Below, piece after piece: positions 18,250 to 55,545 of a DNA stretch of 64,000 nt. Origin of the DNA: Lachnospiraceae bacterium 28-4 (GTDB taxonomy: Bacteria; Bacillota; Clostridia; Lachnospirales; Lachnospiraceae). The translations under genes and the position numbers were made by a program. The notes beneath the pieces are model-generated. The model was not told the DNA's origin, ran no database searches, and was given only the letters and a program-made list of their open reading frames with translations. The stretch is taken from the NCBI GenBank assembly GCA_000403275.2, contig KE159598.1, positions 1,349,722-1,413,721 on the forward strand, read 5' to 3'. How positions within the stretch are numbered: the first letter of the stretch is position 1; the number at the start of each line of letters is the position of its first letter.

Positions 18250-18343
18250 CTTCTCACCTCCTGTCAAAGCAAAGTATAGCAGTTACAAATGACATAAATC
18301 CAATCTCAAAGAGGCTATTATTTTGCATAACAAATTGCATGTA

Positions 18344-18385
18344 TTTGATATAACATAAACTGCATACAATTTATGTTATATCAAA
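18344..18385. repeat. 16-bp perfect inverted repeat, AT-rich
   Basis: TTTGATATAACATAAA at 18344-18359 and its exact complement at 18370-18385 are separated by 10 bp. It lies between the proB terminator and the Mor-like gene. It has no U-tract typical of a terminator on either strand, so an operator or recombination site is possible. Function unknown. Confidence 0.6.
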
Positions 18386-18396
18386 TGCAAATTAAT

Positions 18397-22474: not shown

Positions 22475-22841
22475 AATCTTAGCCATAAAAATCAAATTTT
22501 ATAAGGGTCATGGAGGAGGGAAACAAATGGGGCGGGACAGACTGGGAGGGGCTGACGGAAGAGCCGGTTTTCTGCCATTGCGTACAATCAGTAATTTCAC
22601 TTATGAAATGGTCGATCACCAGAGTGAAACCGCTAGGGACAGCGGTTTCAGGAAGCATAGGCACGGATGCCGTTGCTTCCGGCTCGTCCGGTTAGATACC
22701 TTATATCCATTTCATTTGTGAAATCTGATTGGAAGCTCCGGCAGAAAACCGGCCCTTCCGTCAGCCCCTCCCAGTCTGTCCCGACCCATTTGTTTCCCTC
22801 CTCCATGGCGCTTATAAAAATTGATTTCCATGAATCTTAGC
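22475..22841. repeat. Long inverted-repeat element E1 with 9-bp flanking duplication
   Basis: The element spans 22484-22832 and fills the gap between the BaiN-like gene and the gene ending at 22837. Its ends are CAT(AA/GG)AAATCAA inverted repeats followed by TTTTATAAG. The arms (22484-22575 and 22741-22832) pair almost throughout, and an inner conserved stem pairs 22585-22614 with 22695-22739. The apex carries two hairpins, 22625-22650 and 22651-22680. The 9-bp AATCTTAGC flanks it on both sides (22475-22483 and 22833-22841) as a direct repeat, as expected of a target-site duplication. It encodes no plausible protein and is homologous to the element at 55151-55506. Confidence 0.8.
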
Positions 22842-23469
22842 TGGAATAAGACTCCAGAAAATTATAAAGTTCCTCCTCCGTAGCAATATATTTATTCTGT
22901 ATAATCTCCTGCTTCAACGCATCCGGCAGGGAATCCAGCATAATATTAGTATTCATATAAACTGTCCTCAGGTCATCGCAGTATACTACCACATAATTTT
23001 TTTCGTTCACCAGATAAAAGCTCGTACATAATTCCTTGAAAATATAGCTCTTGCGGATCACCACTCTCTCTTTGGAAAAGGAAACGACCTCGACGCTGAC
23101 AAAACCAAGTTCCTGATCCGTTAAAGAAGGGGATTGCTGGTACAATTCCATTTCTTTTACAAAACGCTGCCGGTTCATGCCGATATATTTATCCGGCGTT
23201 TTCCATTTCGTTTCCACCGAAGTGCCTTTTTGCAGATCCACTTCCTCAATAATATACTGTGTATCAGCGCTGATCACCTGTTCTTCTTCCAGCGCCGTAG
23301 GAATAACTTGTGGTTCCCCCTCTGCGGCGCTGCTTTTTTCCTCTATTTCCATTTGCCGGAATTTCCCCGGATAAAATTCTTCCTCTAATTTCATATGGGA
23401 ATAAAACCCCAAAGCATACATTCCCATAGGCATAATAAAAAAAAGACTGACACGTTTTACAAATCTCAT
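22837..23469 (-). CDS. Membrane-anchored conserved hypothetical protein
   Basis: 210 residues with one N-terminal membrane segment (about 5-22, VSLFFIMPMGMYALGFY) and a soluble outer domain. The C-terminal half (SLTDQELGFVSVEVVSFSKERVVIRKSYIF ... YVVVYCDDLRTVYMNTNI) recalls BofC-like domains of sporulation proteins, but I cannot assign it firmly. The ATG at 23469 is chosen because AAAGGAG precedes it. It is followed, 4 bp after its stop, by the palindromic element E1, whose flanking duplication includes its last codons. It lies downstream of a SpoVB-like flippase. Confidence 0.65.
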   Translation of the reverse strand: MRFVKRVSLFFIMPMGMYALGFYSHMKLEEEFYPGKFRQMEIEEKSSAAEGEPQVIPTALEEEQVISADTQYIIEEVDLQKGTSVETKWKTPDKYIGMNRQRFVKEMELYQQSPSLTDQELGFVSVEVVSFSKERVVIRKSYIFKELCTSFYLVNEKNYVVVYCDDLRTVYMNTNIMLDSLPDALKQEIIQNKYIATEEELYNFLESYSS

Positions 23470-23544
23470 AGCGATTTCTCCTTTGTAAACAGTATCAGCC
23501 AAATTTTATGAAATTATTCTCCAAAGTATCCCAATTCCACAGCT

Positions 23545-46533: not shown

Positions 46534-46604
46534 AATCCCATCTCCTTTTATCTATCCAAAATATAAGACCTAAAGAATCACAGTAAACTATACCATTTAA
46601 AGCC

Positions 46605-47017
46605 CCGGCAGTCAAGCGTCACGGAAATCAATTTTGGAAGTCCGGAGCATGGCAGGGCGGGTTTTGGCACCACCGGCAGCACCGGGCGGAAGCGGGACAG
46701 GACAGGCTGCCCATGGATTTCCATGCCGGTGCCAAGCAAAAGAAGATCTAAATAATACGCCAAAAAACAAACAGCAAGGCGCAAACATCCACGACACCAA
46801 AACCACGCAAAGAGCCGACATGGCGAAACACCCACGGCACCAAACGGCGGATACCGGAACACAAGAATAAGAAAAAAACACATCCCCCCAAAAAACAAAA
46901 GAAATCCATGGGCAGCCTGTCCTGTCCCGCTTCCGCCCGGTGCTGCCGGTGGTGCCAAAACCCGCCCTGCCATGCTCCGGACTTCCAAAATTGATTTCCG
47001 TGACGCTTGACTGCCGG
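46605..47017. repeat. Long inverted-repeat element E2 with perfect 117-bp arms
   Basis: 46605-46721 and 46901-47017 are exact reverse complements over 117 bp, with a 179-bp loop. Core ends at 46620-46640 and 46982-47002 read CACGGAAATCAATTTTGGAA inward, close to the ends of E1 and E3. The loop is A- and C-rich on the plus strand, with two similar units (CACGGCACC and CACGACACC stretches) and CATGCCGGTGCC. The element lies between the mazF stop and the CorC-like start. Open frames across it in several directions are a by-product of the palindrome and are not genes. No flanking direct repeat was found. Confidence 0.85.
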
Positions 47018-47031
47018 AGCCGGACATTTTC

Positions 47032-47388
47032 TTATGTACTCTGGCAAAACAGGCCCAGTTCCAGGCTGATTAGTAATCCTTCGTTTACTCTATCCATAAT
47101 TTCACTGTCCAAATGGCATACTTTATCCTTAAGCCGCCTTTTATCAATAGTCCTTAACTGTTCCAGCAGGATCACCGAGTCCTTGACCATATCATACTCA
47201 TCCGCATTCAGCTCGATATGGGTGGGAAGCTTCGCCTTATTCAGCTTCGAAGTAATGGCAGCGCAAATCACTGTAGGGCTGTGCTTATTCCCCACGTCAT
47301 TCTGTATGATCAATACCGGCCTAACGCCTCCCTGTTCCGAACCGATCACCGGCCGCAAATCCGCATAATAAATATCTCCACGTTTCAT
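47032..47388 (-). CDS. MazF/PemK (EndoA-type) mRNA interferase
   Basis: A 118-residue toxin-family endoribonuclease. [30 protein letters not shown] is the MazF signature with the catalytic R-P-V region, followed by TVICAAITS and [15 protein letters not shown]. It cleaves mRNA at short sequence motifs when free of its antitoxin. I chose the ATG at 47388 behind AAGGGTG. In Firmicutes this gene usually follows alr and a small ribbon-helix-helix antitoxin. Here it starts 68 bp after the alr stop and I see no room for a full antitoxin gene, so the partner must be elsewhere or absent. Confidence 0.9.
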
Positions 47389-55077: not shown

Positions 55078-55150
55078 ATCTTTCCTCTATGCTCCTTTCC
55101 TTTATTTTTCTATTATATTTTATTTGCTGCTATATGACAAGGAAAACAGG

Positions 55151-55506
55151 TACGGAAATTAATTTTGATAAGCGTTACGGCGGAGGGCGGCCAAAAGGGG
55201 CGGAAGCAGCTAGGAAAGGGGCTGGCGGGGAGCTGGTTTTCTGCTGGAGCTTCCAATCAGATTTCACTAATGAAATGGATATATGGTATCCAGCTGATCG
55301 GGTCGGAAGCAAGCGGCTTCCATGCCGCTGCTTCCTGACATTGCCATCCATGGCAATGTCACCCTGCATTTTCGACCATTTCATAAGTGAAATTGCTGAT
55401 TGGAAGCAACAGCAGAAAAACCAGCTCCCCGCCAGCCCCTTTCCCAGCTGCTTCCGCCCCTTTTGGCCGCCCTCCGCTATGGTACTTATTAAAATTGATT
55501 TCCTTG
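55151..55506. repeat. Long inverted-repeat element E3, homologous to E1
   Basis: A 356-bp element whose ends read (TAC/CAA)GGAAATYAATTTTNATAAG inward. The long arms pair with each other and are G-rich/C-rich but differ in sequence from E1. The inner conserved boxes are 55246-55290 (43 of 45 identical to E1) and 55373-55402 (29 of 30 identical). The boxes pair with each other. The apex has two hairpins, 55305-55335 and 55336-55361, at the same places as in E1 but with different, still complementary stems. It is inverted relative to E1. It lies 39 bp after the GntR stop and upstream of icd. No protein is encoded and no clear target duplication was seen. Confidence 0.82.
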
Positions 55507-55545
55507 GAAAATGGATGGCAGACATCGAAATGGATTGCCAGGATG

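Follow-up and report, generated by a model that had tools for sequence, protein, structure and literature searches.

Palindromic mobile repeats and the TwoAYGGAY motif

Computational claims of conserved RNA structure rest mainly on covariation between paired positions. The TwoAYGGAY RNA motif (Rfam RF01731), two GGA-loop hairpins on a long stem, was defined through such covariation and is described as an RNA of unknown function. In the accessible part of one study, its loops are proposed as CsrA-binding sites that act as RNA (PMC4333381). Published accounts of the motif, in the portions available and with the discovery paper (PMC2864571) represented without its supplement, give no terminal repeats, target duplications or mobile-element copy number, features that the family described below does have.

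Several kinds of mobile or symmetric repeats also invite comparison. MITEs are short, multicopy elements with terminal inverted repeats and a target duplication of fixed length. REPs are far shorter than the palindromes considered here, and REP/REPIN elements make no target duplication and depend on a Y1 transposase to move. Two papers, in the portions available, deal with inverted repeats of yeast and E. coli and report that template switching homogenises the repeats by copying one arm off the other, which produces apparent compensatory changes (PMC8604942), and that quasipalindrome correction likewise copies arm off arm (PMC7202029). Literature searches for comparable palindromic mobile elements, judged by their listings, gave nothing relevant.

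We analysed a window of 64,000 nucleotides from Lachnospiraceae bacterium 28-4 (contig KE159598.1), the whole stretch to which the positions below refer, together with the genome that holds it and those of relatives. Two elements in this window, E1 and E3, represent a multicopy mobile element that inserts with a 9-bp target duplication. What is new here is the finding that TwoAYGGAY forms the middle of a mobile element, one whose inverted ends are 16 bp long and whose insertion duplicates 9 bp of the target. The family resembles MITEs in size, copy number, ends and duplication (9 bp here) and differs from them in being palindromic over its entire length, around a conserved Y; unlike in REP/REPIN systems, the palindrome itself moves and leaves a 9-bp target duplication.

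The account that we consider probable is that of a short, non-coding, MITE-like element whose Y centre is TwoAYGGAY and whose symmetry is kept by fold-back DNA copying. A transposase would act in trans on the 16-bp ends, and DNA synthesis would repeatedly copy one arm off the other, by fold-back or template switching or when a folded strand is repaired. Both arms would thus evolve in concert and look compensated, and the copying would at times overshoot into host flank. The same process would explain the arms generally and the tip hairpins in part. The conserved loops and junction would probably be a recognition site, and the loop of hairpin B a landing pad for an IS4-family insertion sequence. 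Quasipalindrome correction or template switching would here act on a mobile family and would yield the sort of covariation by which RNA families are defined.

Two elements with a TwoAYGGAY centre

E1 (22484-22832, plus strand) and E3 (55151-55506, with the motif on the minus strand) are class-B TwoAYGGAY mobile inverted-repeat elements, recognised by their inverted arms and their RF01731 matches and, in E1, by the fold. Both had been delimited correctly in a sequence-only reading of the window, and its identities of 43/45 and 29/30 for two boxes common to the elements were reproduced. The shared ends that it reported hold for three of the four: these fit GGAAATYAATTTTNATAAG, while the left end of E1 (plus strand) reads CATAAAAATCAAATTTTATAAG. 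Measured against the 16-bp end CACGGAAATCAATTTT, the left terminal inverted repeat of E1 (22484-22499, plus) has four mismatches and the right one (22817-22832, minus) has one.

Between its ends, E1 carries a TwoAYGGAY three-way junction (22578-22738, plus; cmscan RF01731) that includes hairpin B (P2; 22625-22650, plus), in which a 10-bp stem, TGAAACCGCT/AGCGGTTTCA, closes the loop AGGGAC. The corresponding stem of E3, whose core three-way junction lies at 55247-55409 (minus; cmscan RF01731), is TGACATTGCCA/TGGCAATGTCA, so that the sequence differs and self-complementarity is kept. Folded as single-stranded DNA, E1 adopts a Y in which long arms lead to a pair of hairpins at the apex; the fold has -146.5 kcal/mol, where 100 shuffles give -45.2 +/- 4.6 kcal/mol (z = -21.9), and a repeat finder independently recovered the arms of both elements. 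The shared ends and boxes, this fold and the multicopy matches given below bear out a real family of Y-shaped inverted-repeat elements with covarying stems. At 18340-18389 the repeat finder also reported an inverted repeat apart from these elements, with arms of 23 nt and a loop of 4 nt.

E1 is flanked by a perfect target-site duplication of 9 bp, AATCTTAGC, with identical copies at 22475-22483 and 22833-22841; the right copy holds the stop codon of a mechanical ORF at 22837-23502 (minus). The 9-mers beside E3, GAAAACAGG on the left (55142-55150) and GAAAATGGA on the right (55507-55515), agree at 6/9 positions and form a putative, degraded target duplication.

Identity and distribution of the tip

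The sequence-only reading knew of no named family for this design, a view that is not supported, as the tips of E1 and E3 match RF01731 at 81.3 and 87.3 bits (cut-off 43), over the full model length, positions 1-168. Under default filters the Rfam search reports E3 alone. MIR533 and Cis8 were rejected as Rfam identities, since their scores lie below the cut-off. Set against the consensus AYGGAY, the loops are AGGGAC and ACGGAT in E1 and ATGGAT and ATGGAA in E3, one exact and one variant in each. Both elements thus carry two GGA motifs in hairpin loops, as in CsrA-sequestering sRNA.

The element is also far from confined to two copies, a prospect that the sequence-only reading had raised: its own genome has at least 62 RF01731 matches over the cut-off, a lower bound, since the list omits E1 as well as four complete copies that were located by their ends (L109, L112, L120 and L121). 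With the own genome counted each time, 12 of the 16 genomes in the genus have matches over the cut-off, as do, under stricter filters, 43 of 299 in the family and 27 of 391 in the class. Among genome contigs, a stretch of 20 bases from the class-B box matched just four, all belonging to a single Lachnospiraceae metagenome-assembled genome, in a search from which records of the own genome were possibly excluded. E3 had no match in plasmid or phage records, and one 20-mer had no exact match in viral contigs. In the own genome, some cores lie in pairs of opposite orientation, with starts ~330-435 bp apart (C3:653045/653430, C1:1195130/1195564, C2:131313/131680, C1:1031191/1031554 and C3:333495/333827).

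Target duplications and empty sites

The 16-bp end could be located on both sides, with at most five mismatches, in 44 of 67 own copies, which form the testable set; the other 23 have no recognisable end on one or both sides and were left out of the duplication test. In the 44 copies, left and right flanking 9-mers mismatch at a rate of 0.477, compared with 0.742 in shuffled pairings (z = -11.0). The signal peaks exactly at length 9, other lengths giving at most z = -4.2. Twelve copies have 9-mers with at most two mismatches, where shuffles average 0.36 and reach a maximum of 3; the 9-mers of the remaining 32 differ at three or more positions.

Empty sites were found in a sister species. G009 lacks both E2, a third element described below, and E3. 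At the E3 site it aligns up to window position 55148 and again from 55546, with four bases between, so that 39 bases to the right of E3 are missing along with the element and the empty site is imprecise. For E1, both flanks could be aligned in six of nine relatives' loci examined, and the element is present in none of them; at this site, G008 has a fragment of the E1 box and G009 another gene.

Some elements have the same ends without an intact tip, namely E2 and several in G004. Nine of 12 stretches are short elements of 52-116 bp, and 9-mers with at most two mismatches flank seven of the 12; they are no proof of tip-free mobility, because later deletion would keep the duplication. Five incomplete elements of the own genome (L105, L107, L108, L110 and L116) consist of one end and an arm, some with part of the tip, followed by host sequence. 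They break off at the conserved box around ATTTCACTNATGAAAT or at the box that partners it, or close by, which looks like a preferred breakpoint.

Covariation in the arms

Arm pairs were counted on the GGA-loop strand in 61 of the 67 own copies (L010 and L061-L065 were left out). The local alignment of the arms understates mismatch, and 398 of 6130 pairs (6.5%) are not Watson-Crick. The stems therefore change mostly with compensation, and change without it, which the earlier reading had named as evidence against its view, is limited to this minority. The aligned arm is free of mismatches in six of the 61 copies, and other copies have many.

An RNA fold would tolerate G-U pairs and not A-C pairs. 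In the arms the two are about equally frequent, at 133 G-U and 153 A-C of the 6130 pairs (p = 0.26). Class B alone gives 87 of each, and a mixed-orientation count of 139 and 147 leads to the same conclusion. Evolution through G-U intermediates should, moreover, favour transitions. Between the 25 closest disjoint pairs of copies, two-sided arm changes comprise 107 transitions and 126 transversions, beside 159 one-sided changes. The one-sided arm mismatches are of transition type in 286 cases and of transversion type in 112; the difference between this ratio and the two-sided one is unpredicted by simple copying of point mutations, and saturation or misalignment may explain it.

Because G-U is about as frequent as A-C, because two-sided transversions are about as frequent as transitions, and because palindromes enter host flank (see below), the covariation of the arms does not look RNA-like. 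Its original interpretation as selection on structure is thus not supported for the long arms; in the tip, selection may play a part. A catalogued RNA family sits in a mobile element, and its arm covariation is better explained by arm-to-arm copying of DNA. Counts of G-U and A-C, two-sided transversions and flank overshoot together make a simple test that could be used on other repeat-derived RNA families.

The arms could instead belong to a DNA cruciform that is bound by a protein, with purifying selection rather than copying keeping them complementary. Similar numbers of G-U and A-C in the arms, and the rarity of both in hairpin B, are also expected from selection on pairing at the DNA level, and the conserved boxes and loops fit a bound structure. 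Yet this explanation accounts neither for the frequent two-sided transversions nor for the palindromes that reach into host flank, and the copies do have arm mismatches. We regard it as rather unlikely, and fold-back copying remains the preferred reading of the arms.

The tip hairpins

Tips were compared in a set of 157 copies, from which four relatives' loci (L068, L076, L077 and L081) had been left out beforehand. The model fits well on either strand: to agree with the reference of their class, 45 of 65 class-A copies and 9 of 92 class-B copies had to be turned. A MAFFT alignment of the tips over both classes was set aside because it misaligned the classes. Loops and junction are conserved, and the GGA loops recur across genera, partly as a product of how the copies were found.

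Hairpin B was counted in 147 of the 157 copies, the ten with fewer than six Watson-Crick pairs in their best hairpin being left out. Its sequence varies, and 1267 of 1323 pairs are Watson-Crick, the rest being 6 G-U, 4 A-C and 46 others; some of the counted hairpins are P3, and picking hairpins for at least 6/9 Watson-Crick pairs favours good pairing. Mismatches are about five times rarer in hairpin B than in the arms. Copying at one rate fails to explain the tip, because transition-type mismatches in the own copies are rarer in hairpin B (5/558) than in the arms (286/6130; p = 2e-6). The low mismatch may reflect quicker correction in a short hairpin, genuine constraint or, to some extent, how hairpins were picked. 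When both tip hairpins are counted in 96 copies (61 of the 157, with low class scores, were left out), G-U exceeds A-C by 24 to 7, and 13 of the 24 G-U come from two P3 pairs of class B, where hairpin P3 has a G-U excess of 16 to 3. The basal helices have 34 G-U and 62 A-C, or 34 and 31 once a single class-A column, mostly A-C, is removed.

These counts bear on a rival view of the tip as a structured RNA, perhaps a GGA-loop small RNA that sequesters CsrA. The covariation would then come from selection on the RNA fold, and the element would be a mere carrier. Rfam catalogues TwoAYGGAY as RNA, and CsrA sites have been proposed for its loops in the accessible part of the study cited above (PMC4333381). 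The conservation of the GGA loops and junction across genera, with the reservation about how copies were found, and the better pairing of hairpin B than of the arms also speak for an RNA, and the G-U excess in the tip hairpins would fit some RNA selection. Against this, hairpin B covaries with almost no G-U. Such near absence would be unusual for an RNA stem and points to DNA there. The arms lack the RNA bias, both strands match the model well, and some same-end elements (E2 and several in G004) do without an intact tip. An RNA role as the source of the covariation therefore seems improbable.

Palindromes reaching into host flank

Fold-back copying would be expected to leave traces outside the element where it overshoots, and E2 (46620-47002) carries such a trace. 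This element has the same 16-bp ends as E1 and E3, a different centre without a TwoAYGGAY match, and a position inside a longer palindrome reported by the repeat finder (46579-47043). The centre is poor in T, with 9 T in the 162 bases of 46739-46900 (plus strand). A mechanical ORF over E2 (46578-47027) has no Pfam match, and a PemK/MazF-like toxin gene (PF02452; 47032-47397, minus) adjoins the element.

The native host flank to the left of E2, CCGGCAGTCAAGCGT (46605-46619), has its first 14 bases at the empty site of G009. The flank to the right, ACGCTTGACTGCCGG (47003-47017), is an inverted copy of 46605-46619, and neither G009 nor G003 has it at the empty site. Of the left flank, G009 has CCGGCAGTCAAGCG, as does G004 with two mismatches; its inverted right copy is absent at the E2 site in G009 and G003, and in G004 the place is taken by another insert. 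Host sequence has therefore been copied inverted across E2, that of one side being written in inverted form on the other. The comparison with outgroups was made for E2 alone.

Among the 44 testable copies, the palindrome runs 12 bp into the flank with at most four mismatches in four (L018, L039, L030 and L043), whereas shuffled pairings average 0.20 and none of 5000 runs reaches four. The count becomes 5/45 with E2 added by hand, whose flank palindrome extends over 12 bases without a mismatch; the extension of L030 is AT-rich and weak. Insertion into pre-existing host hairpins, with the inverted flanks ancestral and no copying involved, would account for these four copies and E2, but it is very improbable, as the E2 site in G009 has the left half alone, G003 also lacks the right half, and the flanks as a set match directly and not inverted.

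Candidate transposases and elements with other ends

MITEs have autonomous partners as a point of comparison; for the E1/E3 family, no autonomous element with matching ends was found among PF06782 and PF01609 transposases and unpaired end sites. The enzyme acting in trans on the CACGGAAATC ends would be a DDE-type transposase. An ISLre2-like (UPF0236) element was considered as mobiliser: two copies in the own genome, L122 and L123, have 9-bp duplications (by eye; GCATAAACA and CAGATTTGT), but their ends are GATAGCGTAAG. Two more DDE_Tnp_1 insertion sequences were set aside because their ends, ACTCAAACTTCCCAC and AGGGGCTGTCGGG, do not match. L104, a stretch between two ends 3.5 kb apart, was rejected as a transposon, as it has host genes inside.

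In relatives, the tip lies inside inverted repeats with other outer sequences (by eye). In G013, a 348-bp element that holds the core shares its end, AATGTCATTAACTTAAG, with many short elements; this genome has 288 matches to that end, and several of the short elements have 9-bp duplications (by eye). The short elements of G013 (for example L225-L254) are very abundant, with ~186 and ~206 bp between outer ends. From the different outer ends around the tip in relatives and in G013, it follows that the tip may be a module, carried by elements that different transposases serve.

An insertion sequence in the hairpin loop

The own genome has seven full copies of an IS4-family insertion sequence (NF033592, 175.2 bits, cut-off 115), and five of these (L272, L278, L279, L280 and L281) lie in the hairpin-B loop of TwoAYGGAY elements. 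The chance of five in seven is negligible if ~80 target copies are assumed. The loop insertions are bounded by a 10-bp duplication, for example CCATCCATGG; the remaining two full copies are at CGGAGGAAGG and GGCAGGAACC, and an eighth, partial copy (L010) has the same junction at one end. As a mobiliser of the E1/E3 family this element was rejected, since its ends, TAATGTCATTAAGTTAG, differ, and it is better seen as a visitor. An orphan Rfam family is now tied both to a mobile element and to the target of an insertion sequence.

We propose tentatively, and with somewhat more doubt than confidence, that TwoAYGGAY is primarily the DNA tip of widespread palindromic transposons that rewrite their own symmetry by fold-back copying. 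In different genomes, elements that differ in their terminal repeats would have acquired the tip, and its loop would be a landing pad for insertion sequences. If this is true, the covariation used to define TwoAYGGAY as an RNA is a by-product of DNA synthesis. REP palindromes offer a parallel for the loop: according to the available text of PMC1525189, IS1397, ISKpn1 and further insertion sequences, the IS4 family included, use them as specific landing sites. In G004, an end similar in sequence to that of the IS4-family element lies at a P3 loop (L319).
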